Origin: Henckelia pumila
Taxonomy: Eukaryota > Streptophyta > Magnoliopsida > Lamiales > Gesneriaceae
DNA: 64,000 nt
Assembly: GCF_033568475.1 (NCBI RefSeq)
Contig: NC_133122.1
Coordinates: forward strand, 187,569,449 to 187,633,448
Direction of reading: 5' to 3'
Below the pieces are notes generated by a model, which saw only the letters and a list, made by a program, of their open reading frames with translations, did not search any database and was not told where the DNA came from. The position numbers and the translations under genes were made by a program. Shown piece by piece: positions 5,015 to 50,333 of the stretch. Numbering within the stretch: the stretch's first letter is position 1; each line of letters begins with the position of its first letter.

Positions 5015-5614
5015 TCAAACATCAAATATTTCACAAACTAAAATAGGTTGCTGAGGCATCTCCTTGCGCTGGGATATATTACCTGTCTTCTGGCATTGAG
5101 CGCACGACTTACAGAAAACGTAAGAGTCATGAAATATGTATGGCCAAAAAAATCCGTTGTCCAAAACCTTTCTCGCTGTTCTTTTAGCTCCAAAGTGACC
5201 AACAAAATCATATGAGTGACAAAATGTGAGAATAGGAATTACCTCTCTTGCCGGTACACATCGTCGTATGACTTGATCAGAGCAGTGTTTCCACAAGTAT
5301 GGATCATCCCACACAAAATACTTAGCATCGCTTCGAACTTTATCTCTATGTGCCTTAGAAAATTCAGAGGGAAACCCATTAGTAACTAAATAATTCACAA
5401 TATTCGCATACCAGGGTAATTCTGTGCTTGCTGAAAACAGTCGCTCATCAGGAAATTCTTCTCGCAAGCTCAGCTCCTCATAAATATGAACTAGACGGCT
5501 CAAGTGGTCAGCGAATCGATTCTCCATTCCTATTTTGTCCTTGATTTCCACATCGAATTCGCTCAAGAGTAGTATCCATCTTATTAGCCTTGGTTTTGCC
5601 TCCTTCTTCGCCAT
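5015..5614 (-). pseudogene. Athila-like RNase H end and integrase zinc domain
   Basis: A 199-aa minus-strand ORF. It begins at the end of RNase H (KPRLIRWILLLSEFDVEIKD, then NRFADHLSRL) and continues to the integrase HHCC region: CHSYDFVGHFGAKRTARK and FCKSCAQCQKTG (C-x2-C). It closes at EIFDV, just before the integrase core, the same place where the young element carries its stop. The N-terminal RNase H half (5615-5890) is only visible as broken text. Confidence 0.85.
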
Positions 5615-5891: not shown

Positions 5892-6827
5892 TCAATGAGT
5901 CCTTATGTTTGTCAAAAGACTTTTTGCATGGTTCATCAAACTCAAACGGGACATATTTTGCAATAGCTTGCACATAGGAGCTGCGATCCTGGCAAAGTAC
6001 TGAATGTATCTCCTGTAAAAATCTTCATGGCCAAGAAAAGATCGCACTTCCCTCACACTTGCGGGGTAAGGTAGAGACTGAATAATATCGATTTTAGCTT
6101 TATCTACCTCTATTCTCTTAGATGAGAAGACATGACCCAAAACAATACCTTGCCCAACCATAAAATGACATTTTTCAGAATTTTGAATTAGGTTGGTTTC
6201 GACACACCGCTTTAGGACTAAAGCAAGGTGAGACAAGCATTTTTCGAATGAATCACCATAGACAGTAAAATCATCCATTAAAACCTCCAAGATATGCTCA
6301 ATATAGTCAGACAAAATGCTAACCATACACCGTTGGAATGTGGTTGGTGCATTATAGAGTCCAAAGGGCATCCGTCGATATGCAAAGGTTCCGAACGGAC
6401 AAGTGAATGTCGCCTTCTCCTGGTCTTTTGGCGCAATTGAAATCTGAAAATAACCAGAATATCCAACAAGAAAACAATAGTAAGAATTAAATGCTAACCT
6501 TTCAATCATTTGATCAATAAAGGGTAAAGGAAAATGGTCCTTTGAGGTTCCAGCATTCAACTTCCTGTAATCTATACAAACCCTCCACCCATTTTGAATG
6601 CGGTTGGGAACCAATTCATCATCCTTGTTCTTCACCACAGTAATCCTGGTTTTCTTGGGTACCAATTGGACTTGACTGACCCACTGACTGTCACAAATTG
6701 GGTAGATGACTCCAACTTCAAGGAGTTTCAGAATTTCAGCCTTCACCACCTCCATCAAAGGTGGGTTCAACTTTTTATGTGGCTGACTCGAGGGGTTTGC
6801 TCCTTCCTCCATTAAAATCTTATGCAT
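5892..6827 (-). pseudogene. Athila-like reverse transcriptase
   Basis: A 311-aa minus-strand ORF with the Athila-type RT text: KLNPPLMEVVKAEILKLLEVGVIYPI, WRVCIDYRKLN, GTFAYRRMPFGLYNAPTTFQRCM and the catalytic VLMDDFTVYGDSF (DD at the YxDD site, here LMDD). The last third holds the thumb-region SLPYPASVREVRSFLGHEDFYRR. The sequence loses its frame before RNase H (after about residue 290). LMDD instead of the usual FMDD/YVDD is mild; the aspartates are kept. Confidence 0.9.
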
Positions 6828-8690: not shown

Positions 8691-10831
8691 TGTGAGACCC
8701 CGATTCTAATCATCTAATCAAGAGTTAGTCCTATCGATAATCAATCAAAGGCCAAAAGATAAGACATTAAATAAATAACAAAAAAATTATTTTTATGATG
8801 AACAGTGCTGCGCTCGATCCTATAAAAGTCCAGGATCGATCGCACCATATTTTGAAACTCTCTGCCGAGAAAATAATATGAGCCGCGCTCGATCCAGCAA
8901 AAATCCAGGATCGAGCGCACCATTTTGTGCAAGTCTCTGCCTCAATATTTTCAGGGGCTGCACTCGATCTCAGAAAATCATGGGATCGAGCGCACCCTGG
9001 GATCAAAATTTTTCCAGAAAACTGAACATGCTTCCAATTCAAAATCAACAATTCAACACAACCTAATATCAATCTAACATGCTCAATTCCGAATCCAACA
9101 ACATGTAATCAACATAAAAACTTCAATATTCATCATTCATAATCAAATCTAATATTCAACAATGCTCGAGTTCTAAACATGGTTTCAAAACATAAACTAG
9201 ATTGGCATGCATTTCCAATTCTAACTCGAAGTCCCACTTCTATTCTTCATTCTCGTTCTATCCCTGTAGTTTCTGACTCGATCCTGCCCACCTGTTGCCA
9301 AGTACACATACAAACAAAGACAACAGCCGGATAATCCGATGAGAATAATATTCCCAGTAAAAGAGACAACATGCTATATCAAATAAACATATCAAACATG
9401 ATATGCATCAATTCACCTCGTATATCAACATCAGATATAATTCAAGTAATTCATTCAAGTGCTGAATTAAAATGATATGCATGTCTGTAAAAAACTTTTG
9501 GATTATCAGACTCAGATAATCAAATGAAATTCTTCTTTCTTTCTTTCTTCGGTTTGGGATTCCGAGGTTAAAATATCCAACAATCACACCGACTATCCTC
9601 TCGAGGTGGACGAGGAATATTTTAATCCTCTAGACTCTGGAGCATTATAGAGAGTTATTTCCGCACATGTAGTAATTCGCCTACAAAGCCACTCAACTAT
9701 AATCACCAGATCGTCTAATTCAAAACGAATAATCATTCGGCTCAATATGAATGCATATGTCATCTCATGCATTCAATCATAAATTTAATAACCAATTCAA
9801 ATAAGCATTCAATCATGATTTCAACTAAGCATTCAATCATGATTTCAAATTAGCATTCTTTGGAACACTCGAATCCAGTCTAATTCGAGTTAATCGTTCC
9901 ATTCAAGTCTAAGTCGTATTTTACCTTATTCGCTTCGAAGGTACTTCAATCTGAAATCAAAAAGCAAGGATAATAGTCAATATCCAATCAAACTCATTCA
10001 AAACTCAATCAACTTCTTCAATCGATAAAAAGAAAATCGATACTGTACCGACTTCAATCTTCCAAACTGAACAAAGCTGCTATCTCGCAACTCTGCTGAC
10101 TTCAATTCAATCTATCAGAAGGAGTCATAAGGATCAATATCGACATCAAAAACTCACTCAAACTCGATACGATCAAAACATAAAAACGATATTCAAAACT
10201 CAAACTGTCGGCATAACGGCTATAAACTGATCAAATCAAAAACGCAGACTGCAATTCAACAATCCAATAAACTCATTTCAATCAATACATATCATTTCCA
10301 ATCCAATCCCAACACATCTCAAATTCAAAGATTTTGAAAATCACTAAGAAAATCATAACAATTCCGATCGTTGTTTGATCTTCATACCATCTTAGATATA
10401 CTCTCACAGCTATCTCAAAATCATCCTCTTCGAATATAAATCAATTCTAAAGACATCCAAAAATTCAAACCTCTCATAAATAAGATAAACTTACTTCCAA
10501 ACGGAGCACTCATCGCTGCGATCGCAGATATCAACTTCAGATCAAATTCCAACGGACGGATCGAGCTAAAATGGAAATCACAAAAGCTTGGAAGCTTTTT
10601 TCTCGCCTTCAATGGAGAGGAACCGATGAAGGGGATGAAGAGGGAACAAATGAGACTAAGTCAAACAAATTCCAAGACCAATCAATATAACAAATCCCAT
10701 TTTTGCGTTTTAGTCCTTGAAAATTCCGAAAATTGCATTCTAGTCCCTGATCAAAATCGAATCGGCCCTCGACTTCTAAAATCTTTGATTATCTCAATTA
10801 AGGTCCATTAATATAATTTTGGGGCGTTACA
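8691..10831 (-). repeat. 3' LTR of the Tekay-like element
   Basis: 2141 bp, TG...CA ended, with the outer end at 8691. It carries three hairpin modules at 8809-8845, 8884-8920 and 8959-8994 close to its 3' (left) end. It aligns along its length with 15005-15119 plus 26780-28800. Point differences are clearly more frequent than between the LTRs of the level-3 element, so this insertion is older. Confidence 0.92.
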
Positions 10832-15004: not shown

Positions 15005-15119
15005 TGTGAGACCCCGATTCTAATAATCTAATCAAGAATTAGTCCTATCGATAATCAATCAAAGGCCAAAAGATAAGACATTAAATAAATAACAAAAAAA
15101 AAAAATTCTGATGAACAGT
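15005..15119 (-). repeat. 5' LTR of Tekay-like element, left piece
   Basis: The first 115 bp (in plus coordinates) match 8691-8805. The sequence is interrupted after GATGAACAGT by the level-3 element and resumes at 26780. The last five bases, ACAGT (15115-15119), are the target-site duplication of the level-3 insertion. Confidence 0.95.
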
Positions 15120-16786
15120 TGATGAAACTTAAAATTTGTAATTATTTATATGTTAAAAAGTGTGTTTTAAATTTTAAGTTTAATTAAAATTATGAAGTTG
15201 TATTATTTTAGTGTTATGTGTTTATATTTAAATGTTTTACTAAAATGTTGTATTTTACGGTTTGCGCAGGTTTGGTAAAAATAAAATTACTCAAGCTACA
15301 GAGGTCATAATGGAGTAACCTCAAAACCTGTAGAATCACAAAAGAGGCATCTTCAACTTTGTAGAAGACAAGAAATTCCAAAAACTTCATTAAAATGATC
15401 AAAATAATCAAACATCAAAATGGAGATAGATTTACTTTTACTATGACCAGCTTGGAGTAAAAATATCATAAGTATTTCATATTTTATCCAAAAGGGGTGA
15501 ATGAGTTGTCCAAACACATCTACACAAAATATCCAACGTGTTCTATGTTGAAAAGAAAGGCTGAATCGGTGGTCTAAGGCATCAAACATGCCAATTAAAG
15601 TTGGGTCATGGTATTAACATTCAAGGAGACAAGCACCCACCAACTTTACTATTTCACATTTAATGAGCCTTGGACTCTTGCTCTCATTTGGCCTATAAAT
15701 AGATGTGTTGTATAAGCTTTGTAGTATGCAAGAGTGTAGAGAATTCTTTATTTGTAAAATAAATATTGTGTGTGTGAGAATAAAAGTTTGAGTGTGCAAG
15801 TTTCTCAAGTTCAAGTATGAAATTTCTTTTATCTTTATTCTTGAGTTTCATGTTAATGGAAAGCTAAATCTATTTATGTCAAGGTGAAAAGGTTTCATTG
15901 TTGGTCAAGTAAGATTGTTTATATTTTGTATATTCTTTTCTTTTCTATTTTTATTTTTACTAATTGATCTTTATTTGTAGGTATAATTTTGGATGATTTG
16001 TTGTTATCTATTTACATCAAATGCTTGGTACCTTGAATGTGGTTACCTTGATTTGTTGTCAAATATGATACAATAAATACTACAATAATTATATACTATA
16101 AATATATGTATCTATTTATAATAAAGTCATATATATTATTTAGACGATAGCGTGACACTGTCGGTTGTTCTAAATAATATTGTGATTTGAACTAACATTT
16201 ACTTTCTCGCATCTAACTTTTACTTTATCGCAACTAACATTTACTTTTCCGCAACTAACATTTACTTTCTCGCATATAACATTTACTTTTCCGCAACTAA
16301 CATTTACTTTATCGCATCTAACATAAAATCATATATTTTATTTTGACGATAGCGTGGCTCTGCCGGTTGTTCTAAATGAAATATTGTGATTTGATCTAAC
16401 ATTTACTTTTATGTCAATTTATATTTATGCATTTATATATATATTATGGGTACCATGTATTAAATATCGACTGATATTAATATAGTGGAAACTATATTAT
16501 ATGATATACTTGTTTAAATATTTCATTGTTCTTTTATGTTTATTCTTATTTTAGTTTCTTTTATTTATTTTTATTAAACAATCTTAAATAAACCAACAAT
16601 GAACCTTTGAAACCTTGACAATTTTATAATTTGTGTATTTGAAGTTTTATAATAATATTTTTATCTATAATATATTATTGCTAAAATTAAACTTACAACA
16701 TCCTCTCCGTGGATCGATCTCGTACTCACGAGTATATTACTTGCAGACAACCTACACTTGGGTGAATTACAATTTAAGTTGTAGCA
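15120..16786 (+). repeat. 5' LTR of level-3 element
   Basis: 1667 bp, starting TGATGAAACTT and ending TTGTAGCA. A promoter-like GCCTATAAATAG stands at about 15690-15702, followed by a transcript-start-like region, so R probably begins near 15720. A six-fold 22-bp repeat lies at 16190-16325. The 3' LTR (25106-26774) is nearly identical. Confidence 0.95.
16190..16325 (+). repeat. Six-fold 22-bp direct repeat inside the LTR
   Basis: Units follow the pattern CTAACATTTACTTTTCCGCA with variation in the last bases (TCGCA, TATCGCA). The array is bracketed by two copies of a GACGATAGCGTG...CGGTTGTTCTAAAT block (about 16144 and 16344). The same array is present at about 26182-26315 in the 3' LTR. It lies downstream of the putative TATA box and so would be in the transcribed leader. 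Confidence 0.8.
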
Positions 16787-16792
16787 AGTTTT

Positions 16793-16810
16793 TGGCGCCG
16801 TTGCCGGGGA
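16793..16810 (+). promoter_or_regulatory. Primer binding site for tRNA-Asp
   Basis: TGGCGCCGTTGCCGGGGA, six bases after the LTR end, is exactly complementary to the 3' end of plant tRNA-Asp (CCA included). This primer is characteristic of Athila-type elements. A GAG|GTATAA splice-donor-like site begins immediately after it (cut at about 16811/16812). Confidence 0.92.
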
Positions 16811-16866
16811 GGTATAAATTAAGTTTAATTTTGTTATTATGTAAATAGTATGTTGTTTTTTATTGT

Positions 16867-18232
16867 ATGATTGTTTGGAGTCGTAAACAAAGTGGTAGAC
16901 TTGTTCGAGTAACTGAAAATATTTTAAACATGGACGATAATTCTAATAATCAAGATGATAATAATAATAATAATCATCAAGAACATGAACAATCAAGAAC
17001 ACTTAGGCACCATATGAATCCAATAAGAACTAGTACACCATCTTGTTTAGTTTTTCCTCCTGATGCATCTAATTTCAATTTTAAGCCACAAGTCATTCAA
17101 CTTTTACCAAATTTTCATGGCTTAGATTCTGAAAATCCATATTTGCATTTAAGAGAATTTGAGGAGGTTTGCAACACTTATAATGATCAAAATTGTAGCA
17201 TGGATACTGTTCGATTAAAGATTTTCCCTTTTTCCTTAAAAGATAAAGCTAAAACATGGTTGCAAAATTTGAGATCAAGTTCAATAAGATCATGGGAAGA
17301 AATGCAACAACAATTTCTAAAAAAGTTTTTTTCCTTCCCATAGAACAAACTCTTTTAAAAGACAAATTACAACTTTTTCTCAAAAACAAGGGGAAACATT
17401 TTATCAATGTTGGGATAGATATAAAGAGTTACTTAATACATGCCCACATCATGGTTTTGAAATATGGAGAATAGTTTCTCACTTTTATGAAGGTTTAATA
17501 CCTAAAGATAGGCAAATGATAGAATTCATGTGTAATGGAACTTTTGAAGATAAAAACCCAAATGAAGCTATGGAATATTTGGAGTCATTAGCAGAAAATG
17601 CTCAAAATTGGGATAATATAGGCTCAATTGAACCACCAAGTAAAACCAATAATTCAACAAATGGGGGTGGTATTTATCATCTTAAAGATGATGTAGATGT
17701 TCAAGCTAAACTTGCATCTTTAGCAAGAAAATTAGAAATGAAAAAGAGTGATCAATTAAAAAGTGTTCAAGAAATTGTTTGTCATATATGTGACACACAT
17801 GATCATCTTACAAAAAATTGTCCTACTTTGCCTTCATTTAAAGAATGTCTCCATGAACAAGCCAATTATGTTAACAATTTTAAAAAACCAACATTAGATC
17901 CTTTTTCACAAACATACAATCCTGGTTGGAGAAATCATCCCAATTTTAGTTGGAGGAACGATAATAATGCACAACCTTCACAACAACCTTTTCAAAATAA
18001 CCAAAATCATCAAGGTTATGCTCCTTATATCCCACCTCCAAGAAAAAATTTTGAAGATGAAATTCATGCATACATTCAAAAGCAAGAGTCTATCAATATT
18101 CAAAACATTCAATCTATGAATGATTTGAAAGAAACTCTTGCAAAATTTGCATCTGCACTTAATATTCATGAAAAAGGAAAATTTCCATCTCAACCACAAC
18201 CTAATCCTAAAAATCAAAATCAAAAAATTTGA
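16867..18232 (+). pseudogene. gag of level-3 element (one frameshift)
   Basis: The first ORF 16867-17343 (158 aa; the more likely start is the Met at about 16930) has an Asn/Asp-rich N-terminus and the retrotrans_gag domain (LPNFHGLDSENPYLHLREFEE, then LKIFPFSLKDKAKTWLQNL). It is cut short in a run of seven T (about 17326-17332) that shifts the frame. The domain continues in the next frame (CWDRYKELLNTCPHHG) into ORF 17516-18232, with the zinc knuckle CHICDTHDHLTKNC and a Pro/Gln/Asn-rich tail. Gag packages RNA and forms particles. The homopolymer lesion could be real, a sequencing slip, or less likely a recoding site. Confidence 0.88.
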
Positions 18233-21200
18233 TCAAGTAAAATCTGTTATTACTCTTAGAAGTGGTAAAATAGTTAATGATCCATATAGTGATGAAAACA
18301 AAGATCAGTCAAACTCAAAGAGTAAGGATGAAAATCTTGATACTTTCGAGAAAGATGATACTTTGAGTCCTAAGATTAAGAAAGTTGATGATAAATTATC
18401 TGAAATAATATGTGAGTCAAATAAACATGTTCCTTTCCCTCATGCATTAGTTAATAATAAAAAACAAAAAAATGATTCTGATATTTATGAAGTTTTTAAA
18501 CAAGTAAAAATAAATATTCCATTATTAGATGCTATTAAACAAGTGCCTTCTTATGCAAAGTTTTTAAAAGATTTATGTACTGTAAAAAGACAATTGCATG
18601 TAAAGAAGAAAGCATTCTTAACGGAGCAAGTAAGTTCTATTATTCAAAATAATTCTACCTTGAAATATAAAGATCCCGGTTGTCCAACAATTTCATGTAT
18701 TATTGGAAAAAATAAAATTAAAAAAGCTTTGTTAGATTTGGGAGCAAGTGTGAATTTAATTCCTTATTCAGTTTATGAAAAGCTTAAGTTGGGAGATTTA
18801 AAACCTACATCTGTTACTCTTTTACTAGCCGATAGGTCAATCAAAATACCTAGAGGTATCGTAGAAGATGTGTTAGTTCAAGTCGATAAATTCATATATC
18901 CTGTGGATTTTATTGTCTTGGATACACAACCAATAGAAGTACATAACGAAATTCCAGTAATATTGGGACGTCCATTTCTAGCAACTTCAAATGCTTTAAT
19001 TAATTGTCGAAATGGAATAATGAAATTGTCTTTTGGAAATATGACTTTAGAACTTAATGTGTTCAATTTATGTAAACAACCAAGTATTAATGAAGATGAA
19101 GATGATAATGCAATAGAAACAATTGTGGAAGAAAATATACACCAAAAAAACTTAAATCAACAATCTGAAGTTTGTTTAGTGGAAAGTTTTGATTCAAAAA
19201 ATGTTTTTAAATCAAAGTTATTTGAAGAAATTAATAAACTTGAAGAAGTAAAAGAAAATGATCATCCAAAACTTGAATTAAAACCCTTGCCAATAGAACT
19301 AAAATACGCTTTTCTTGGTGAAAATCAAACATATCCTATTGTAATATCTTCTACCCTCTTACCAAAACAAGAAGAAGATTTAATAACACTACTTAAAAAA
19401 CACAAAAATGCAATTGGATGGACTTTGCAAGATATAAAAGGTATAAATCCTTTAATCTGCACACATAGAATTCATTTGGAAGAAAATGCTAAAACATATC
19501 AACAACCACAAAGAAGATTAAATCCACACATGAAAGAAGTTGTTAAAAATGAAGTTTTAAAACTATTAGATGCCGGAATTATTTATCCAATCTCGGATAG
19601 TAAATGGGTAAGTCCAACACAAGTAGTACCAAAAAAATCAGGCATCACTGTTATAAAAAATGAAAAGGGAGAATTATTACAAGCTAGGATTCCATCTAGT
19701 TGGCGTATGTGCATTGATTATAGAAAATTAAATGATGCAACTAGAAAAGATCACTTTCCGTTACCATTTTTAGATCAAATTTTAGAGAAAGTGGCAGGTA
19801 ATCCTTATTATTGTTTTCTTGATGGGTATTCGGGGTATTATCAAATACCAATATCATTAGAAGATCAAGAAAAAACTACTTTCACTTGTCCGTTCGGAAC
19901 TTTTGCTTTTAAAAGAATGCCATTTGGTTTATGTAATGCCCCGGCTACTTTTCAAAGATGCATGCTAAGTATTTTTAGTGACATGATTGAAGAATTTGTG
20001 GAAGTTTTTATGGATGATATAACTGTTTTTGGAAACTCATTTGAAAACTGTCTTAAAAATTTGGAAGAAGTTTTAAAAAGATGTGAAGAAAAAAATCTTG
20101 TTTTAAATTGGGAAAAATGTCACTACATGGTTAAATCCGGAATTGTGTTAGGGCATGTCATATCTGAAAAAGGAATTGAAGTTGATAAAGCTAAGGTTGA
20201 TGTTATTGCTAATCTACCATCACCAAACACGATCAAAGAAATTCGATCATTTTTGGGTCATGCGGGATTTTATAGAAGATTTATAAAAAATTTTAGCATA
20301 ATATCGAAACCAATTTCAAATCTTTTAACAAAAGATGCACAATTTGAATGGACTCAAGAATGTGAAACTGCTTTTAAAAAAATAATTAATCTTTTAACTA
20401 CATCACCTATTTTACAACCTCCTGATTGGTCTTTACCATTTGAATTAATGTGTGATGCAAGTGATTATGCTGTAGGAGCCGTGTTAGGACAAAGAAAAGA
20501 AGGTAAACCTTATGTGATCTATTATGCAAGTAGAACCTTAAATAGTGCTCAAATCAATTATTCAACAACTGAAAAAGAATTACTTTCAGTAGTGTTTGCA
20601 TTAGATAAATTTCGATCCTATTTAATTGGTTCTACTACTATTTTTTACACTGATCATTCTGCCATAAAATATTTATCAAATAAACAAGATGCTAAGCCGA
20701 GATTAATAAGATGGATTTTGTTGTTACAAGAATTTGATCTTGTAATAAAAGATAAAAAAGGAAAAGAAAATGTAGTAGCCGATCATTTATCAAGAATAAT
20801 TTCTGAATCATCTCAAAATGAAATACCAATAAATGAAAATTTTCCGGATGATCAACTATTTTATGCTACTACTATGCCTTGGTTTGCTAATATTGTAAAT
20901 TTTCTTGTGACAAATAAAATGCCTTCTCATTGGAGTTCACAAGATAAAAATAAATTTTTGAAAGAGGTCAAAAAATTTTATTGGGATGATCCTTATTTGT
21001 TTAAGTATTGTCCTGATCAAATTTTTCGACGATGCATACCCGACAATGAGGTAAGTAGTGTCATTAAATTTTGTCATTCTGAGGCATGTGGAGGTCATTT
21101 TTCGTCAAAGAAAACAGCTGCAAAAATCTTTCAATGTGGATTTTATTGGCCTTCTTTATTCAAAGATACACATTCATTTTGCAAATCTTGTGAAAATTGT

Positions 21201-22163
21201 CAGAAAATGGGTTCAATTTCAAAACGAAACATGATGCCTTTAAATCCAATCATGATTATTGAAATATTTGACAGTTAGGGAATAGATTTTATGGGTCCAT
21301 TTCCATTATCTTTTGGATTCACTTATATTTTAGTAGCTGTCGATTATGTTTCAAAATGGATTGAAGCAATTGCATGTAGAACTAATGATCATAAAGTTGT
21401 GATAAAAGTTTTGAAAGAAAATATTTTTAGTCGATTTGGAATACCTAGAGCTATAATAAGTGATGGGGGAAGTCATTTTATAAATAAATCATTTTCTTCG
21501 TTGTTAAGAAAATATGGTATTACACATAAAGTTTCTACTCCATATCACCCTCAAACGAATGGTCAGGTTGAACTTGCAAATAAAGAAATAAAACAAATTT
21601 TGGAAAAAACAGTCAATCCAAATCGAAAAGATTGGTCTTTAAGATTAAGTGATGCATTATGGGCATATAGAACTGCATTTAAAACATCATTGGGGATGTC
21701 ACCATATAGATTAGTTTTTGGAAAGCATTGTCATTTACCTGTTGAAATTGAACATAAAGCTTATTGGGCAATTAAAGCGTTTAATACTAATTTAGATGAT
21801 GCATCTAAATCAAGAAAATTGCAATTAAATGAACTAGAAGAATTAAGAAATGATGCATATGAAAATGCAAAGATTTATAAAGATAAAACAAAAGCATTTC
21901 ATGATAAAAATATTATGAGAAAATCTTTTGAAATCGGACAAAAAGTTTTACTTTATAATTCTCGCTTGCATTTGTTTCCAGGAAAACTTAGATCGCGATG
22001 GTCTGGACCATTTATTGTTAAATTTGTCTATCCTCATGGTGCTGTTGATGTTGAAAATCCTAAAAATAATAATGTATTTAAAGTTAATGGGCAAAGACTT
22101 AAACCGTTTATAGAAAATGAAGTTCTTAATGAAGAGTTTATTCCTTTATATGATCCAACTTAA
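18138..22163 (+). pseudogene. pol polyprotein of level-3 element (one in-frame stop)
   Basis: ORF 18138-21278 (1046 aa) overlaps the gag end by 95 bp in another frame, so gag-pol needs a +1 shift near an A6 run at about 18222-18229. Domains by residue: protease site LLDLGASVNLIP about 198-209, RT WRMCIDYRKLN about 520 and VFMDDITVF about 624, RNase H LMCDASDYAVGAVL about 768 and YTDHSAIKYL about 838, integrase zinc region CHSEACGGHF with CKSCENC about 979-1020. A TAG at 21276-21278 interrupts it, where relatives have a Trp-bearing [12 protein letters not shown]-like text. The same frame then continues (21291-22163, 290 aa) with the integrase core ([27 protein letters not shown] holding D, D and E) and C-terminus, without a chromodomain. 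Confidence 0.92.
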
Positions 22164-22309
22164 TTGTTACTTATATTTTTATTTTATTTTTGCAGAATTG
22201 AGTTCACTTCCCGGTTAAGTGGCGGATAACGGTACTCCGTGACTACTTTTAGTCGGTTTTATTTCAATTTCCCAAAATAATTGAATATATATATATATAA
22301 ATATATATT
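22164..22309 (+). promoter_or_regulatory. Putative 3' splice site upstream of accessory ORFs
   Basis: After the pol stop comes a T-rich tract ending in TTATTTTTGCAG at 22184-22195, a good plant 3' splice site with an upstream pyrimidine-rich track. Spliced to the GAG|GTATAA donor beside the primer site, it would make a subgenomic mRNA starting the CRP-like ORF, as reported for env-like genes of some plant LTR elements. The stretch 22285-22308 is a TA run ending directly at the ATG. This is inference from motifs only. Confidence 0.4.
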
Positions 22310-22861
22310 ATGGATGAAGCTATCAAAAAACTTGGTAAATATTTTCCATCTGTTTCTAAAAAAGTTCTGAGAATGATTTATGAAGGCAGATGTGAAAGAT
22401 TGAGAATGCTTATGCAAAAAGGAATCCCGGAGGATATTCGTCTTATAATTGAAGCCAAGGTTCGATTAGGTGGTGAAGTTCCAAAATTCTTACTTGTTCG
22501 AAATATGTCTGGACTAGGAAAAAGTACCTATGCGAAGAAAAGAAGGGCTAAAAGGTTAGATGTTTGTCATAATTGTGCCAGATGGACTTGTAATAGACAA
22601 TGCAGATCTTTGGGATATGTTTCCACAAATAGAGAAGATAAAATTGATTTCATTAAGAATGGGCTGAGTAAAGAGTCATTGGATGATATCTCATTGACTC
22701 TTGAGACGCATTCTAGTGGAGATGTACAAGGTCAACTTCTCCGTTTATGGAAACTATTCCAAGCGCAGCGTCATGGTGATGGTCTTGGGAATCTGACTAA
22801 AAAAGACCCTATTTGCCAATTTATAAGAAAATTGAATGGTAAGCCAACCCTCGACTCATAA
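22310..22861 (+). CDS. Cysteine-rich, basic nucleic-acid-binding-like protein (carlavirus CRP-like)
   Basis: 183 aa, uninterrupted. Residues 1-60 are helical and charged. Residues 71-83 (KSTYAKKRRAKRL) form a strongly basic patch immediately followed by four cysteines, C86-x2-C89-x4-C94-x3-C98, a compact zinc-finger-like cluster. The C-terminal third (about 110-183) is acidic then basic and has no motif I know. A YA-basic-basic-RRA block directly before a C-x2-C, followed by a hydrophobic FI-x2-G stretch, is the hallmark of the carlavirus cysteine-rich protein family (Pfam Carla_C4), small nucleic-acid-binding proteins linked to silencing suppression and transcriptional activation. Here the cysteine spacing is tighter than in that family and the protein is longer. 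It lies 146 bp after pol and 190 bp before the LOG ORF, in the position of an env-like gene. Viral kinship is inference; a plant zinc-finger origin is the alternative. Confidence 0.75.
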   Translation: MDEAIKKLGKYFPSVSKKVLRMIYEGRCERLRMLMQKGIPEDIRLIIEAKVRLGGEVPKFLLVRNMSGLGKSTYAKKRRAKRLDVCHNCARWTCNRQCRSLGYVSTNREDKIDFIKNGLSKESLDDISLTLETHSSGDVQGQLLRLWKLFQAQRHGDGLGNLTKKDPICQFIRKLNGKPTLDS

Positions 22862-23000
22862 ATATTGAAGGAACACTGTGAGCCACAATCACATCACTGT
22901 TTATACGCATGCATGTTATTATTATATATTATTTTTTTTTACTATTTTCATCATTTTGTTCACATCTGTATTCCTATTTCTGTCTTATTCCTTGTTTTCC

Positions 23001-23051
23001 TTATAAAATCACTCAACTCTCTCTATATTTTTTAAAAGAAAAGAAAAAAAC
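23001..23051 (+). promoter_or_regulatory. TATA-like motif and leader before the LOG ORF
   Basis: CTTATAAAATCACTCAACTC sits about 40-50 bp before the LOG ATG, followed by a CT-rich stretch and an A-rich run ending AAAAAAACATG at the start codon. TATAAA followed by CTCTCTCT would suit a short-leader plant promoter, or this may be the relic 5' UTR of the captured mRNA. No experimental support is possible here. Confidence 0.35.
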
Positions 23052-23690
23052 ATGACAGGATCTTCTTCACAAAAATTGAAAAATATTTGTGTCTTTTGTG
23101 GTTCTAATACTGGAAAGAATGAAATATTTGTTGATGCAGCAATTAATCTTGGAAAAAATTTAGCAGAGAGAAAAATTCACTTGGTTTACGGAGGAGGCAA
23201 TATTGGGTTAATGGGATCTATTTCAACAGCAGCTCATCTTGGAGGTAGTCAGGTTTTGGGTATTATTCCTACAGCTTTAGCTGAAGGAAATATTACAGGT
23301 GTTACGGTTGGGGAAGAGTTGAAAGTTTCATCAATGTACGAGAGAATAACTAAAATGATAGAAAATTCTGATGCTTTTATTGCCTTGCCTGGTGGTTTTG
23401 GTACTTTAGAAGAAATTTTTCATGTTGTTTCTTGGGCACAACTTAATATCCATAATAAACCTGTTGGCTTGTTGAATATCAATAAATATTATGATGGTTT
23501 GTTGACTTTTCTCGATGTAGCCGTGGAACAAAATTTTATTACAGAAAATTCACGAAGGATGCTCATCTCTGCTTCGAATGAAGACCAATTAATTGATGAT
23601 CTCCAAGCTTTTGTTCATCAACCTGATTCAGCTATAACAAAGATCAATTGGTCTCAACCAACCAGTAAGAAAAGAAAACTATATCATTGA
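23052..23690 (+). CDS. LOG: LOG-family cytokinin riboside 5'-monophosphate phosphoribohydrolase
   Basis: 212 aa, complete, one exon. The family removes ribose 5-phosphate from cytokinin nucleotides to give active free-base cytokinin. Visible landmarks: ICVFCGSNTGKN at 12-23, the nucleotide-binding VYGGGNIGLMG at 45-55, Arg98 in MYERITKM, and the signature LPGGFGTLEE at 112-121 containing the catalytic region PGGxGTxxE. Length fits plant LOGs (about 210-220 aa). Plant LOG genes have several introns; this one has none, which points to capture through mRNA. The C-terminus ends in a KKRK basic tail that could act as a nuclear signal and is not a usual LOG ending. The codons are as AT-rich as those of the neighbouring pol, so the gene has probably been in the element for some time. 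An A14 run begins 91 bp after the stop. Confidence 0.93.
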   Translation: MTGSSSQKLKNICVFCGSNTGKNEIFVDAAINLGKNLAERKIHLVYGGGNIGLMGSISTAAHLGGSQVLGIIPTALAEGNITGVTVGEELKVSSMYERITKMIENSDAFIALPGGFGTLEEIFHVVSWAQLNIHNKPVGLLNINKYYDGLLTFLDVAVEQNFITENSRRMLISASNEDQLIDDLQAFVHQPDSAITKINWSQPTSKKRKLYH

Positions 23691-25105
23691 TTCAACATGT
23701 CATGAAATGGTTTGTGTTTGTTCCTCATCTTCAATAATTTCAGGTGATATCTCTTTCATCATGTACTCTTTATTTTTCTTAAAAAAAAAAAAAATTTAAA
23801 ATTTTTAAAAAAATATATTTCTATAATAATATTTATTTTTTTTTTTCAATGGCAGAGTAAGGAGTCAAAAACTCCTGACACGCATTAGTTTTTATTTATC
23901 ATCTTATCACAATAGATTAGATTTTAATATTCCGTATATATTTAAATTGCAAACTACTAAGAAAATGAAGTCTTTTTGTATAGATGTTTATTTATTCTTC
24001 TTTTTATCAATTTAATAGAAAATATATAATTGATGGGATATAAGTTATAAATAATATATAATTGTGTGTTTTCAAATACATATTTTCTAAAACTTTTATG
24101 AGTATATAATTAAAGTGATATTGATTGAATAAATAATAACATGTATAATTGAGGGAATTAATTTGTAAAAGTTCAATAGTTACTCACATAAATTTTGTGA
24201 GTGAGGGGTAAGAATTGAGAAAACAACTTATAAGCTTTTATTGATTATTAAGAAATGGTTGATTACTAGATTAAACCCATTTTGAAAAAAAAAAGAAAAA
24301 AAAAGAAAAATGAAAATTGGCTGCAAAGTTGTTTGAAGTTTGATTGTAAAGATGTAGAGTATTAATATCTCTACTATAATTATTAATGTAATAGATTTAC
24401 CTCATAAAAAATAAAAAAAAATAAATAAAATTTGAAAAAAAAATGTTACATTTTCAAAGTTTATTGGAGGTATTTGATTATGTAAAAACAATTTTGCAGC
24501 CAAGCAAAAAAACAAAAAAAACAAAAAAAAAACAAAAAAACAAAAAAACAAAAAAACAAAAAAAAAACAAAAAAAAAAATGGGTTTATTCTTTGTAAATC
24601 ATCCTATCTTATTTTCAATATTAGGTTATTTGATTGTCTGCTTTACTAGCCATTTTCAAAGAGTGTATAATTTCTTCCAACTCCATGAGTGAAAAACAAC
24701 TATATATGAAATACTTTAACCCGAGAGAATATGGAGTTGAGACTTTTACATTAATATTCTTGATGATATACATGTTATGAAAATGATTTCTATTATCCTT
24801 TTAATTATATTATTCTCAAAGTTTTTAGAAAATATTTATGTAAAAAAAAAAAAAAAATTATATATATTTAATATTTTGATATTGTGTGAAATATATATGT
24901 ATAGCCCATCCAATTACATATTGATGTATTGGTTGATAATGAGATTTATAAATAAACATATGATCTCCTCACAAGTGTGTTTTTAAAATTTCAAAGTTTG
25001 CAAATTTGAATATATATATTAAGGAATAAAAATCTAACTTGTGATTTTATGATATTTTATGATATTTTATTACTAAGGGACTAGTAATTAGCCGGTTTGG
25101 GGGTG
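23691..25105 (+). other. AT-rich 3' non-coding region of level-3 element
   Basis: 1.4 kb with no convincing ORF. It contains an A14 run at 23781-23794 and low-complexity A/C-rich (AAAAAAAC)n sequence at about 24505-24578. An inverted repeat has arms at about 24270-24335 and 24484-24590. The last bases before the 3' LTR (GGTTTGGGGGTG, ending 25105) are the likely polypurine tract that primes plus-strand synthesis. Confidence 0.6.
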
Positions 25106-26774
25106 TGATGAAACTTAAAATTTGTAATTATTTATATGTTAAAAAGTGTGTTTTAAATTTTAAGTTTAATTAAAATTATGAAGTTGTATTATTTTAGTGT
25201 TATGTGTTTATATTTAAATGTTTTACTAAAATGTTGTATTTTACGGTTTGCGCAGGTTTGGTAAAAATAAAATTACTCAAGCTACAGAGGTCATAATGGA
25301 GTAACCTCAAAACCTGTAGAATCACAAAAGAGGCATCTTCAACTTTGTAGAAGACAAGAAATTCCAAAAACTTCATTAAAATGATCAAAATAATCAAACA
25401 TCAAAATGGAGATAGATTTACTTTTACTATGACCAGCTTGGAGTAAAAATATCATAAGTATTTCATATTTTATCCAAAAGGGGTGAATGAGTTGTCCAAA
25501 CACATCTACACAAAATATCCTACGTGTTCTATGTTGAAAAGAAAGGCTGAATCGGTGGTCTAAGGCATCAAACATGCCAATTAAAGTTGGGTCATGGTAT
25601 TAACATTCAAGGAGACAAGCACCCACCAACTTTACTATTTCACATTTAATGAGCCTTGGACTCTTGCTCTCATTTGGCCTATAAATAGATGTGTTGTATA
25701 AGCTTTGTAGTATGCAAGAGTGTAGAGAATTCTTCATTTGTAAAATAAATATTGTGTGTGTGAGAATAAAAGTTTGAGTGTGCAAGTTTCTCAAGTTCAA
25801 GTATGAAATTTCTTTTATCTTTATTCTTGAGTTTCATGTTAATGGAAAGCTAAATCTATTTATGTCAAGATGAAAAGGTTTCATTGTTGGTCAAGTAAGA
25901 TTGTTTATATTTTGTATATTCTTTTCTTTTCTATTTTTATTTTTACTAATTGATCTTTATTTGTAGGTATAATTTTGGATGATTTGTTGTTATCTATTTA
26001 CATCAAATGTTTGGTACCTTGAATGTGGTTACCTTGATTTGTTGTCAAATATGATACAATAAATACTACAATAATTATATACTATAAATATATGTATCTA
26101 TTTATAATAAAGTCATATATATTATTTAGACGATAGCGTGACACTGTCGGTTGTTCTAAATAATATATTGTGATTTGAACTAACATTTACTTTCTCGCAT
26201 CTAACTTTTACTTTATCGCAACTAACATTTACTTTTCCGCAACTAACATTTACTTTCTCGCATATAACATTTACTTTTCCGCAACTAACATTTACTTTAT
26301 CGCATCTAACATAAAATCATATATTTTATTTTGACGATAGCGTGGCTCTGCCGGTTGTTCTAAATGAAATATTGTGATTTGATCTAACATTTACTTTTAT
26401 GTCAATTTATATTTATGCATTTATATATATATTATGGGTACCATGTATTAAATATCGACTGATATTAATATAGTGGAAACTATATTATATGATATACTTG
26501 TTTAAATATTTCATTGTTCTTTTATGTTTATTCTTATTTTAGTTTCTTTTATTTATTTTTATTAAACAATCTTAAATAAACCAACAATGAACCTTTGAAA
26601 CCTTGACAATTTTATAATTTGTGTATTTGAAGTTTTATAATAATATTTTTATCTATAATATATTATTGCTAAAATTAAACTTACAACATCCTCTCCGTGG
26701 ATCGATCTCGTACTCACGAGTATATTACTTGCAGACAACCTACACTTGGGTGAATTACAATTTAAGTTGTAGCA
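25106..26774 (+). repeat. 3' LTR of level-3 element
   Basis: 1669 bp, TGATGAAAC...GTAGCA, near-identical to the 5' LTR. The visible differences are a C to T at about 26009, G to A at about 25869, T to C at about 25736, A to T at about 25521, and an extra TA at about 26165. Direct repeats of ACAGT flank the element. Confidence 0.95.
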
Positions 26775-26779
26775 ACAGT

Positions 26780-28800
26780 GCTGCGCTCGATCCTATAAAA
26801 GTCCAGGATCGAGCGCACCATATTTTGAAACTCTCTGCCGAGAAAATAATATGAGCCGCGCTCGATCCAGCAAAAAGCCAGGATCGAGCGCACCATTTTG
26901 TGCAAGTCTCTGCCTCAATATTTTCAGGGGCTGCGCTCGATCTCAGAAAATCATGGGATCGAGCGCACCCTAGGATCAAAATTTTTCCAGAAAACTGAAC
27001 ATGCTTCCAATTCAAAATCAACAATTCAACACAATCTAATATCAATCTAACATGCTCAATTTCGAATCCAACAACATGTAATCAACATAAAAACTTCAAT
27101 ATTCATCATTCATAATCAATTCTAATATTCAACAACGCTCGAGTTCTAAACATGCTTTCAAAACATAAACTAGATTGGCATGCATTTCCAATTCTAACTC
27201 GAAGTCCCACTTCTATTCTTCATTCTCGTTCTATCCCTGTAGTCTCTGACTCGATCCTGCCCACCTGTTGCCAAGTACACATACAAACAAAAACAACAGC
27301 TGGATAATCCGGTGAGAAAAATATTCCCAGTAAAAGAGATAACATGTTATATCAAATAAACATATCAAACATGATATGCATCAATTCACCTCGTATATCA
27401 ACTTCAGATATAATTCAAGTAATTCATTCAAGTACTGAATTAAAATGATATGCATGTCTGTAAAACTTCTGGATTATCAGACTCAGATAATCAAATGGAA
27501 TTCTTATTTCTTTCATTCTTCGGTTTGGGATCCCGATGTTAAAATATCCAACAATCACACCGACTACCCTCTCGAGGTGGACGAGGTATATTTTAATCCT
27601 CTAGACTCCGGAGCATTATAGAGAGTTATTTCCGCACATGTAGTAATTCGCCTACAAGGCCACTCAGCTATAATCACCAGATAGTCTAATTCAAAACGAA
27701 TAATCATTCGGCTCAATATGAATGCATATGTCATCTCATGCATTCAATCATAAATTCAATAACCAATTCAAATAAGCATTCAATCATGATTTCAAATAAG
27801 CATTCAATCATGCAAGTATGTGATTTATTTGGAACACTCGAATCCAGTCTAATTCGAGTTAATTGTTTCATTCAAGTCTAAATCGTCTTTTACCTTATTC
27901 GCTTCGAAGGTACTTCAATCTGAAATCAAAAAGCAAGGATAATAGTCAATATCCAATCAAACTCATTCAAAACTCAATCAACTTCTTCAATCGATAAAAA
28001 AAAAAATCGATATTGTACCGACTTCAATCTTCCAAACTGACCAAAGCTGCTATCTCGCAACTCTGCTGACTTCAATTTAATCTATCAGAAGGAGTCATAA
28101 GGATCAATATCGACATCAAAAGCTCACTCAAACTCGGTACGATCAAAACATAAAAACGATATCCAAAACTCAAACTGACGGCATAACGGCTATAAACTGA
28201 TCAAACCGGAAACGCAGACAGCAATTCAACAATCCAATAAACTCATTTCAATCAATACATATCATTTCCAATCCAATCCCAACACATCTCAAATTCAAAG
28301 ATTTTCAAAATCACTAAGAAAATCATAACAATTCCGATCGTCGTTAGATCTTCGAACCGTCTTAGATATACTATCACAGCTATCTAAAAATCATCCTCTC
28401 CGAATATATATCAATTCTAAAGACATCCAAAAATTCAAACCTCTCAAAAATAAGAGAAACTTACTTCCAAACGGAGCACTCGTCGTTGCGATCGTAGATA
28501 TCAACTTCAGATCAAATTCCAACGGACGGATCGAGCTAAAATGGAAATCACAAAAGCTTGGAAGATTTTCTCTCGCCTTCAATGGAGAGGAACCGATGAA
28601 GGGGATGAAGAGGGAAAAAATGAGACTAAGTCAAACAAATTCCAAGACCAATCAATATAACAAATCCTATTTTTGCATTTTAGTCCCTGAAATTCCAAAA
28701 ATTGAATTCTAGTCCCTGATCAAAATCGAATCGGCCCTCGACCTCTAAAATCTCTGATTATCTCAAATAAGGTCCATTAAGATAATTTTGGGGCGTTACA
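26780..28800 (-). repeat. 5' LTR of Tekay-like element, right piece
   Basis: It resumes after the ACAGT duplication with GCTGCGCTCGATCC and runs to GGGGCGTTACA. Hairpin modules lie at 26782-26818, 26858-26892 and 26930-26966. It aligns with 8806-10831. In sense (minus) orientation this is the first part of the LTR, starting TGTAACGCCCC. Confidence 0.93.
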
Positions 28801-29331
28801 GATTTCTTTTCCGATATTTGCGGCTCTAGAAGATGGGAAGTACTTCTCCAGAAAAATTCTTTTCATTTCAGTCCAAGTCGTGATGGATCCAGATGGTAAA
28901 TAATACATCCAATCCTTAGCAGCACTCTTCAAAGAGAAAGGAAAGGCCCTCGGTTGGATCTGCTCCTCTATCACTTCATGGGGTTTCATACTTGTGCAAA
29001 CCACATGGAATTCTATCAAGTGCTTGTTAGGGTCCTCACCTGCAAGACCATGAAAAAAAGGCAATAAGTGAATCAATCCAGATTTAAGCTCAAAAGTAGC
29101 ATTATTTTCTAGAGTAGGAAAAGTAATGCATAAGGGATGTTGGTTTGGATCAGGAGTGCCCAATTTTCTAAGGATAAGATTAGCGTTTTCAGCCATTTCG
29201 TGCTCAGGAATTTCAGTATGAATCTCTTCCTCTTCCTGTCTTCTACGAGCTTCTCTTCTTCGCCTGTGTAAAGTTCTTTCGATCTCCGGGTCGTAGGAAA
29301 AGTCTTCTTCAGAAAAATCACTTGAAAACAT
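28801..29331 (-). pseudogene. Athila-like gag N-terminal half (level 1)
   Basis: On the minus strand, from a Met at 29331: SYDPEIERTLHRRRREARRR, then the retrotrans_gag start (FELKSGLIHLLPFFHGLAGED and RAFPFSLKSAAKDWMYYL, EKYFPSSRAANIGKEI). It is cut at 28801 by the Tekay-like insertion and continues in the same protein context at 8690. The open frame extends to 29442, but those extra residues overlap the primer site and are not part of gag. Confidence 0.9.
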
Positions 29332-29423
29332 GAACGAGAGAAAACAACTAGAAACAAAGAAAAGAGAAGAGAGTGAGATTAAACAAAATAAAAAAGAAAA
29401 ATAACACAATAAATTAAACACCG

Positions 29424-29441
29424 TCCCCGGCAACGGCGCCA
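29424..29441 (-). promoter_or_regulatory. tRNA-Asp primer binding site (level 1)
   Basis: The minus strand reads TGGCGCCGTTGCCGGGGA, identical to the primer site of the level-3 element and complementary to plant tRNA-Asp. It lies five bases inside the LTR end and so fixes the boundary of the 5' LTR. Confidence 0.92.
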
Positions 29442-29446
29442 AAATT

Positions 29447-48415: not shown

Positions 48416-50333
48416 CTAGAAGATTGACCACCACTTCTTCCTCCTAATTACCCGACTACTCTTCCCCATAATAGGATCCCAAATATTCTTCAATTCCTTT
48501 GTTTTCTTCTCAAACACATGTGCTTCTGCAGCTTGGTGTTCATCCAACCACTCCATCGCAGATTTTATCCCGTCTTGGATTTTTTCGGCATCGGCAGCTG
48601 GTAGTTTGAGACCAAGTTTCGTGGTCATAAAAGCAGCCCTGGTGCTATACACATAATGCTCCAGAGAATTTTTCGCCGCGAACTTCTTTCTAATCTCTTC
48701 ATCTTCTATCCTAAATCTTTCTACTTCATTCAACTTTCTTTCAATCTCGTTCTTGGACAACAAGCTGTTGATATGGTTGATTGTAAAACTCTTCTTATTG
48801 CCAGTTGCTCTGTCTTCAGCAGTTATGTTCAAAATACCATCAGCATCGATCTCAAAGCACTCGGTAACTTTAGCAACGCCTCTGAGAGCAGGAGGAATGC
48901 CATATAAACTAAATGTACCTAACAGAATGTTGTCGCTCGCTCTGGCCCTTTCACCTTCATACACTTTAATCCATAGATTAGTTTGGTCGTCGCACATAGT
49001 GGAAAACACCTTTTCCTTCTTAGTCGGAATAGTGGTATTCCTGGGGACTATTACAGACATTATATCGTCCTTCACATACACACCAAGAGATAGAGGTGTG
49101 ACATCCGATAATATGAGGTCTTGGATTTCATTATTACCTTGTCCTGTCAAAAGCAGAGCTCCTTACCATCGAAGAAATCCTCAAGCAATTGCTGCACCTT
49201 TGGAATTCTAGTAGATCCACCAACAAGAACCACTTCGTGTATCCTTTTCTTGTCCATCCCGGCATCCTTCAAACACTTCTCCACATGACAATGCATTCCT
49301 CGAACAAGTCTACGTTGAGATCGTCAAATTTGGCACGTGTTATTGTAGAGTGAAAATCAAATCCATCACACAAACAATCAATTCCAATAGTTGTGTGTGC
49401 CGTAAAAGACAAATTCCTCTTTGCCCTCTCACAAGCTGTCCTCAACCTTCTCAATGATCGCGGGTTGTCGCTTATGTCCCTTTTGTGCTTCCTCTTGAGT
49501 TCTTCGACGAAATGGTCGACCAATCTGTTGTCAAAATCCTCTCCTCCGAGGTGTGTGTTGCCCGCGGTCGACTTAACCTTAAAGACACGCTTCGCCATAG
49601 TGAGAAGTGAGACATCGAAAGTGCCACCGCCAAGGTCGAAAACAAGTACATTCTTTTTAGAAGATTTACGTGACATTTTGTCGAGACCATAGGCAACGGC
49701 CGCTGCAGTTGGTTCAACAATGATACGCAAGACATCGAGCCCAGCAAGGAGTCCGGCATCCCTGGTTGCCCGCCTCTGGGAGTCATTGAAGTAGGCAGGT
49801 ACGGTAATAACAGCTTTCATAACTTTAGATCCCAGAAAAGCTTCTGCAATCTCCTTCATCTTGCAGAGGACCATTGAAGAAATCTGTTCCGCAGCGAATT
49901 GTCTTTCTTCGCCTTTGTAGGTGACCACAATCATTGGCTTGTTGTCATGAGAAACAACCTTGAAGGGCCAAAGCCTCAAATCTTTCTGTACCAAAGGATC
50001 GTTGAATGTCCTACCAATCAATCTCTTTGCATCTGCAAAAATATAATTTATACTTTGAGATTGTAAGACTAACACTTAAATTGTTGAAGAAGTGGGAATG
50101 TTAATTAATATCTCACCAAAAACAGTGTTGGTCGGGTTGACGGCCGCTAGATTCTTGGCTGCATCGCCGATGAGACGTTCGGTTTCGTTGAAAGCTACGC
50201 AAGAAGGCGTGATGCGGTTGCCCTGATCGTTTGGTATGATCTCAACACGATTCTGTTGCCACACGGCTACGCATGAATAAGTGGTGCCCAAATCGATTCC
50301 CACCGCCGCCGGAGCTTGACTTTTCCCGGACAT
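48416..50333 (-). pseudogene. HSP70: Cytosolic-type HSP70 pseudogene with intron
   Basis: Exon 1 50333-50117 (from [20 protein letters not shown]) ends at a GTGAG donor; an 84-bp intron (50116-50033, ending TTTTTGCAG) sits at the conserved plant HSC70 position, and exon 2 starts AKRLIG. All three HSP70 signatures are visible: [36 protein letters not shown]. The protein would be an ATP-driven chaperone. Exon 2 is broken at about 49288 (frameshift between DLFEECIV and VEKCLKDAG) and at about 49155, where some 19 codons after DGKELC are missing. The substrate-binding domain (48416-49150, from GNNEIQDLILSDVTPLSLGV) follows. The C-terminus ends RRKKWWSIF, not the cytosolic EEVD. A divergent or tissue-specific gene is less likely than a pseudogene. 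Confidence 0.9.

Follow-up and report, generated by a model that had tools for sequence, protein, structure and literature searches.

Within a 64,000-nucleotide stretch of DNA (hereafter the window, i.e., the whole stretch analysed), an Athila-like Ty3/gypsy retrotransposon holds two accessory genes between pol and its 3′ LTR, encoding a homologue of flexivirus cysteine-rich nucleic-acid-binding proteins (CRP) and a LOG-family protein in which three residues of the base/prenyl pocket are replaced. Both ORFs, or remnants of them, were found in this order in 99 of the 100 loci examined across the genome. On balance, we lean towards the view that CRP and LOG are a stably carried two-gene module by which this family promotes its own spread and success, and that they do not code for particles.

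Anatomy of the element

The element is bordered by 5-bp repeats and by two LTRs that show four mismatches in 1,667 aligned sites, plus two gap columns (Table 1). Assuming 1.3e-8 substitutions per site per year for plants, the four mismatches would correspond to an insertion age of ca. 90,000 years. The preliminary description had spoken of a complete young element, which holds for the LTRs only: in this copy, gag shifts frame partway, and one in-frame stop divides pol into two ORFs of the same frame. Yet both accessory ORFs are open, on the + strand, with pol upstream and the 3′ LTR downstream, exactly where they had first been placed.

Table 1. Features of the element in the window (positions count from the first letter of the window).
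Feature	Position	Strand	Basis or remark
LTR retrotransposon, Ty3/gypsy	15120–26774	+	LTRs, TSDs, Pfam domain order
TSD ACAGT, left	15115–15119		5-bp repeat bordering LTR
5′ LTR	15120–16786	+	1667 bp, TG...CA
Primer binding site TGGCGCCGTTGCCGGGGA	16793–16810	+	begins 6 nt past 5′ LTR
gag	16867–18232	+	two ORFs in differing frames (16867–17343, 17516–18232)
pol, protease-RT-RNaseH-integrase	18138–22163	+	ORFs 18138–21278 and 21291–22163
TTTTTGCAG, resembling a 3′ splice site, between pol and CRP	22187–22195	+	sequence signal
Exchanged cassette (CRP and spacer)	22310–23050	+	differs between types A and B, flanks closely similar; edges approximate
CRP ORF	22310–22861	+	183 aa, basic; Cys finger behind NLS-like stretch
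YAKKRRAK basic stretch and C-x2-C-x4-C-x3-C finger	22529–22603	+	CRP alignment
TATA-like box	23000–23012	+	ca. 50 nt upstream of LOG ATG; weak, AT-rich surroundings
LOG-family ORF	23052–23690	+	212 aa, intronless; Arg98 and Glu121 (own numbering), both catalytic, unchanged
Stretch with replaced pocket residues Tyr96, Ile99, His124 (own numbering)	23337–23423	+	consensus His, Lys, Glu
3′ LTR	25106–26774	+	1669 bp, TG...CA
TSD ACAGT, right	26775–26779		5-bp repeat bordering LTR

The primer binding site is one that we take to be complementary to tRNA-Asp. In a Pfam scan, the first gag ORF matched PF03732 (34.2 bits), the protease match in pol was weak, and the remaining domains followed the order RVT_1, one RNaseH region, Integrase_H2C2 and rve, i.e., the Ty3/gypsy arrangement with RT-RH before integrase. 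The same scan revealed no second (archaeal-type) RNase H in the element and no match to Athila ORF-1 (PF03078) in its six ORFs. The latter domain was found in 16% of Athila elements (PMC6317226) and is not obligatory, and judged by its sequence the element appears to be an Athila-like member of Ty3/gypsy.

A number of other features were observed in and around the element. Window positions 26180–26310, inside the 3′ LTR, contain short repeats of the type ACATTTACTTTCTCGCA, which are possibly regulatory. A direct repeat (10027–10326 and 27997–28296, 96% identical) has one copy on either side of the element, and together with the surrounding Pfam matches to a minus-strand RT (5892–6827), an integrase zinc domain (5015–5614) and gag (28777–29442) it suggests nesting of the element in an older Gypsy element. 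Two adjacent HSP70 pieces on the minus strand (48416–50075; PF00012, 180 and 336 bits) represent a broken HSP70 gene or a retrocopy.

Copy number and linkage of the pair

A search of the 884.7 Mb assembly holding the window with PF03641 yielded at least 150 matches (the best-scoring 150 of 375 candidates), of which 62 places lay outside the set retrieved by LOG position. The loci that were examined comprised 87 found by LOG, 15 found by CRP and the window (103 records), and 100 of these were distinct after L010, L018 and L019 had been left out as the same elements as L043, L029 and L040. CRP sequence was present upstream in 88/88 LOG-found loci (the 87 and the window; in two as fragments of 54 and 62 aa), these loci having been picked by Pfam score, which favours intact LOGs and not CRPs. 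Reciprocally, LOG was present downstream in 14 of the 15 CRP-found loci, so that what had been described from a single stretch is a repeated two-gene module. Given this linkage, a one-off insertion of host sequence was rejected, as were chance ORFs as an explanation for the pair.

Both ORFs were open and gapless in 42 loci, and the CRPs fell into two types (type A in 88 and type B in 12 of the 100 distinct loci). Moreover, a codon pattern for MYERITKM returned 269 exact matches in the genome, compared with none for its reversed control and eight for host-type motifs.

Individual loci deviate from the common arrangement. Locus L017, with a type-B CRP, is without LOG inside its 1.5-kb flank, reflecting either decay or a CRP-only element. 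Three same-strand LOG matches on C72 (3249743, 3271205 and 3292657, spaced 21,462 and 21,452 bp apart) suggest that a segment containing the element was duplicated in tandem, and two same-strand copies on C2 (50825859 and 50835973), 10,114 bp apart where the element minus one LTR measures 9,988, look like a tandem LTR-sharing recombinant.

Origin of the element LOG

The second accessory ORF indeed encodes a full LOG-family protein, with a match to PF03641 (Lysine_decarbox family) of 133 bits (cut-off 27), the PGGxGTxxE motif and the catalytic Arg and Glu. The closest solved protein is the plant LOG AtLOG3 (2a33; 217 bits), with which it shares ca. 50–52% identity and the same catalytic residues, and from which it differs in being intronless and in having the His, Lys and Glu of the base/prenyl pocket replaced. 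With the window copy as query, identity to plant LOGs was 49–54% and that to the best bacterial relative 48%. A pattern search of the genome for the canonical motif recovered eight host LOG genes, and in 8/8 the coding sequence was split across the locus, in contrast to the intronless element ORF. Two of these host genes on different chromosomes, L104 (C1:131435643) and L107 (C3:40389023), were identical in the compared protein columns, which points to a recent duplication or an assembly copy.

A tree was built from seven element, eight host, two Arabidopsis and two other bacterial LOGs together with the best 80 of 134 bacterial relatives. Support was 100 for the elements, 100 for plants plus elements and 70 for the plants only. 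Since plants and elements form one clade, the element LOG stems from the plant LOG line. A bacterial origin was rejected on the basis of this clade and of a bacterial identity that nowhere exceeded the above 48%; in a smaller tree, two bacterial sequences had joined the elements with a support of 93, and this grouping was lost in the larger set. From these comparisons, the LOG capture would be either old or fast-evolving. A run of ca. 14 A at window positions 23780–23800, 90 nt past the LOG stop, could be the poly(A)-tail relic of a captured LOG transcript, but this reading is weak because the region is AT-rich.

Replacement of the LOG base/prenyl pocket

In LOG enzymes, Arg99 and Glu122 are the catalytic residues, Met96, Lys100 and Glu121 form the adenine site, and Met96, His97, Lys100, Glu125 and Trp129 form the prenyl site; the enzymes are dimers, with Glu125 and Trp129 being supplied by the neighbouring subunit (PMC4979012). 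A census of the 81 gapless element LOGs among the 100 loci (CgLOG numbering) revealed that His97 was replaced by Tyr and Lys100 by Ile in 81/81 copies, and Glu125 by His in 78/81 (with Tyr in two and Asp in one). Arg99, Glu122, the phosphate residue Thr119 and Trp129 were unchanged in all 81 copies, and Met96 and Glu121 in 80 each. All nine positions were unchanged in four solved reference LOGs (two from Arabidopsis, two bacterial) and in the eight host LOGs, but the host His97 and Lys100 are not evidence, because the search pattern required Met96, His97, Arg99 and Lys100. Glu125, a position independent of that pattern, was kept in 8/8 host LOGs. Among the best 80 of the 134 bacterial relatives, Lys100 and Glu125 were each kept in 79 and His97 in 66, i.e., in these alignments His97 is variable elsewhere as well, and Lys100 and Glu125 hardly are. 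In a type II bacterial LOG, a Lys-to-Ala change at the Lys100 equivalent abolished AMP hydrolysis, and type II LOGs have a Phe at the place of His97, where Ala leaves AMP activity (PMC5379747).

Since three pocket residues are replaced, and the Lys and Glu among them are nearly always kept in bacterial LOGs, ordinary cytokinin activation by the element LOG is doubtful. The protein likely has another substrate or has lost hydrolysis, and without the pocket Lys the enzyme could be dead; the retention of the catalytic pair under selection (see below) would favour another substrate over lost hydrolysis. The label of cytokinin-activating enzyme that the preliminary description had attached to the ORF is thereby weakened, and its proposal that an ordinary LOG together with the CRP drives meristem division and so favours germline spread of the element now seems rather unlikely to us. 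This proposal draws on the complete or near-complete retention of the catalytic Arg, Glu122, phosphate Thr and Glu121, on purifying selection, on the variability of His97 elsewhere, and on the hyperplasia induced by the CRP of CVB (PMC12172455). It is opposed by the pocket changes throughout the element copies, at positions where Arabidopsis and bacterial LOGs have His, Lys and Glu and where the host LOGs keep Glu, and by the requirement for the Lys in the type II enzyme.

We regard it as improbable that a catalytically dead or weak element LOG joins host LOG subunits and so alters mixed dimers and host cytokinin levels. Because the adjacent subunit contributes two residues to the prenyl pocket (Glu125, replaced in the element, and Trp129, kept), mixed dimers would indeed be altered, but irrelevant catalysis would not demand that the catalytic Arg and Glu be kept in 81/81 copies. 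Whichever its role, the replaced pocket is a naturally occurring variant with which the range of LOG substrates can be explored.

Exchange of the CRP cassette between element lineages

When type-B loci were compared with the window in 75-base bins, the identity of L009, L013, L015 and L023 was 0.84–1.00 to the end of pol, fell to 0.36–0.80 across ca. 22340–22990, and was at least 0.91 from ca. 23090 over LOG. A further type-B locus, L020, behaved as the others on the LOG side and did not align on the pol side. By comparison, the flanks of type-A L016 and L022 are about as distant (pol mostly 0.92–0.99), yet CRP is at 0.91–0.99, and type-A L021 was at least 0.97 identical along the whole comparison. 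A dip to ca. 0.8 in L016 and L022 at the AT-repeat bin at 22265 is common to type B.

Between types A and B, dS was ca. 1 for CRP versus 0.098 for LOG, and the element LOGs of both subfamilies were 84–96% alike. Taken with the similar flanks, this difference in dS indicates that CRP and the spacer behind it were swapped as a unit between element lineages, probably via template switching in reverse transcription. Stops were present in 6/8 gapless CRP-B compared with 17/68 CRP-A sequences, so that the type-B copies look older. In two type-B copies, the 3′ LTRs were 90–91% like that of the window in long pieces, the 5′ LTRs lying beyond the retrieved stretches.

Signs of selection on both ORFs

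Codons were counted in gapless, full-length copies with stops allowed (81/100 LOG, 68/88 CRP-A and 8/12 CRP-B). Variants were classed by the number of copies holding them, with single-copy variants taken as post-insertion decay, and codons with two or more base differences were excluded from the variant-class and integrase counts. For LOG, omega was 0.91 among singletons (with 12 stops) and 0.35, with no stop, among variants present in at least four copies (Fisher p 0.021). For CRP-A, the corresponding values were 1.16 and 0.48 (with one stop in the shared class), a difference that alone is not significant (p 0.105), and pooling LOG and CRP-A gave a Fisher p of 0.003. Variants in two to three copies were unconstrained (omega 0.96 for LOG and 0.89 for CRP-A).

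Pairwise pN/pS among open copies, of LOG and of CRP-A alike, went from ca. 2 at very small pS, where the ratio is biased by binning on pS, to 0.27–0.42 at pS of at least 0.04, and the single CRP-B pair gave 0.58. Comparing the CRP-A of the window with eight CRP-B copies, six of which hold stops, yielded dN/dS values of 0.39–0.53 at dS 0.94–1.16, the lowest values (0.28–0.39) occurring in residues 65–125 around the finger. An integrase control held too few shared sites (two N and one S in 61 copies). Together, these counts are signs that selection has kept both accessory genes working. As the ORFs occur in other copies, the LOG dN/dS is non-neutral in variants shared by at least four copies and the pair is no one-off insertion, the module as first described withstands these comparisons.

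It is hard to see CRP and LOG as passenger genes, i.e., as an ancient capture copied along without benefit, which we consider quite improbable. The function of plant eORFs has been doubted (PMC6317226) and the variants in two to three copies fit such a passenger status, but the pooled constraint on variants in at least four copies, the persistence of the basic stretch and the four Cys in open aligned copies of both CRP types at a dS of ca. 1, and the likeness of the LOGs across both subfamilies all stand against it.

Homology of CRP to flexivirus proteins

The carlavirus-type affinity claimed for the first accessory protein was upheld by profile searches. The CRP of the window exceeded the cut-offs of both PF05515 (Viral_NABP; 25.9 bits versus 23, spanning 84 residues) and PF01623 (Carla_C4; 23.1 versus 20.9 bits, covering ca. 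30 residues), and that of L020 exceeded both by ca. 6 bits, with PF05515 matching across 105 residues. Twelve open copies picked from both CRP types all matched the two families at E ≤ 0.1 (best E 1.6e-7 and 6.7e-7). Of five shuffles and one reversal that were generated, three shuffles and the reversal were scanned, and none matched any viral family in Pfam, which led us to reject a simple compositional match. The reversed decoy did match an unrelated family at 0.0015, so that E values near 1e-3 carry little weight. A PF05515 profile search of the genome (150 of 315 candidates scored) yielded 15 matches at E ≤ 1e-3, with a top score of 35.5 bits, and all 15 were CRPs of the element family by tblastn. 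No PF05515 match occurred in 14 control genomes, a weak control since these are non-plant as far as named, and scans of viral contigs with CRP and LOG gave no relative. Single-sequence structure models had a mean pLDDT of 38 (CRP) and 41 (LOG) and were too poor for fold searches.

Cys 86, 89, 94 and 98 were invariant in the 12/12 aligned open CRPs of both types, and the basic stretch YAKKRRAK immediately precedes them, i.e., by sequence the element CRP has an NLS-like stretch adjoining a Cys zinc finger. This combination is the pattern of allexi- and mandarivirus CRPs, several viral CRPs suppress silencing, and one, that of CVB, is a transcription factor (PMC12172455). On profile evidence, we consider the element CRP to be homologous to the flexivirus cysteine-rich nucleic-acid-binding proteins; because it sits in a retrotransposon, and not in the 3′ part of an RNA virus genome, it is a homologue rather than a viral CRP.

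There is little likelihood that the CRP is instead an env-like or gag-like zinc-knuckle protein of Athila convergent with viral CRPs: zinc knuckles and basic stretches do recur, the window copy lies just 2–3 bits above the cut-offs (ca. 6 for L020) and the PF01623 match is short, but 12/12 copies match two separate viral families where three shuffles give nothing, and PF05515 extends across 84 or more residues with a best genomic score of 35.5 bits.

Proposed function and expression of the module

In the module reading that we favour, the CRP would share ancestry with flexivirus CRP/NABP and would probably be a nuclear, zinc-finger, nucleic-acid-binding protein; by analogy with several viral CRPs, its most likely effect would be to dampen the silencing that the host directs at the element. 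The LOG would go back to a plant LOG gene captured long ago in intronless form, in which the phosphoribohydrolase core was kept and the base pocket changed. Probably, its substrate is no longer the usual precursor of cytokinin but a different nucleotide monophosphate, or else the protein works by way of host LOG dimers. A bolder version, which we put forward tentatively and would not expect to prove correct, is that the module is an exchangeable counter-defence cassette in which a virus-type silencing suppressor is swapped under host pressure and the LOG has been re-aimed at another nucleotide. If true, a transposon would be fighting host control with virus-type tools, and the LOG target would perhaps be a defence signal.

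As for expression, the 3′ splice-site-like signal TTTTTGCAG between pol and CRP was kept in 87 of the 92 loci with recognisable context (8/100 loci had no context match), and a message for the accessory genes could be produced by splicing to it. Expression of both probably proceeds via such a message from this conserved acceptor after pol, and LOG may perhaps also have a start site of its own, for which the weak TATA-like box is a candidate.

Comparison with known systems

The closest known parallels for the LOG half are Gypsy consensuses of Citrus sinensis, C. clementina and Populus trichocarpa that contain a YgdH/LOG domain (PMC9289625, which cites Steinbauerova 2011 for YgdH/LOG-bearing Gypsy elements). 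As in the window, these are Ty3/gypsy elements with a LOG-type extra domain, and the LOG half is therefore not new in kind; where PMC9289625 deals with them, it mentions neither a CRP nor a changed pocket and presents no analysis of copies or of selection. The novelty that had been assumed for the whole cargo thus shrinks to CRP and the CRP + LOG pair, no account of which in a retrotransposon was found in the open-licence literature.

The CRP ties a transposon to plant RNA viruses. Like the CRP/NABP of Carlavirus, Allexivirus and Mandarivirus, it has a basic NLS-like stretch directly before the Cys finger, and it differs from them in its DNA-integrated retrotransposon setting, its C-x2-C-x4-C-x3-C finger, which is unlike the carlaviral spacing, and its length of 183–190 aa. 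A Phalaenopsis Gypsy group likewise has an ORF for an additional enzyme, an AlkB RNA demethylase, whose proposed role is to counteract control by the host, and AlkB occurs in flexiviruses as well; these elements differ in their genes, their size of 25 kb and their dual RNase H as in Tat/Ogre (PMC9289625).

Finally, the env-like ORFs of Athila and other elements share the sense orientation and the position between pol and the 3′ LTR (PMC7264820), but here there are two separate ORFs of known families and no Athila ORF-1 Pfam match. A survey of plant eORFs counted only those of at least 250 codons, a threshold at which both CRP and LOG would be missed (PMC6317226). Extra ORFs are common in plant LTR retrotransposons and mostly of obscure origin and function. 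In the present family, relatives can be named for CRP and LOG alike, and the two occur together in nearly all loci examined and bear signs of selection, so that plants offer a direct way to test whether transposons carry anti-silencing genes.
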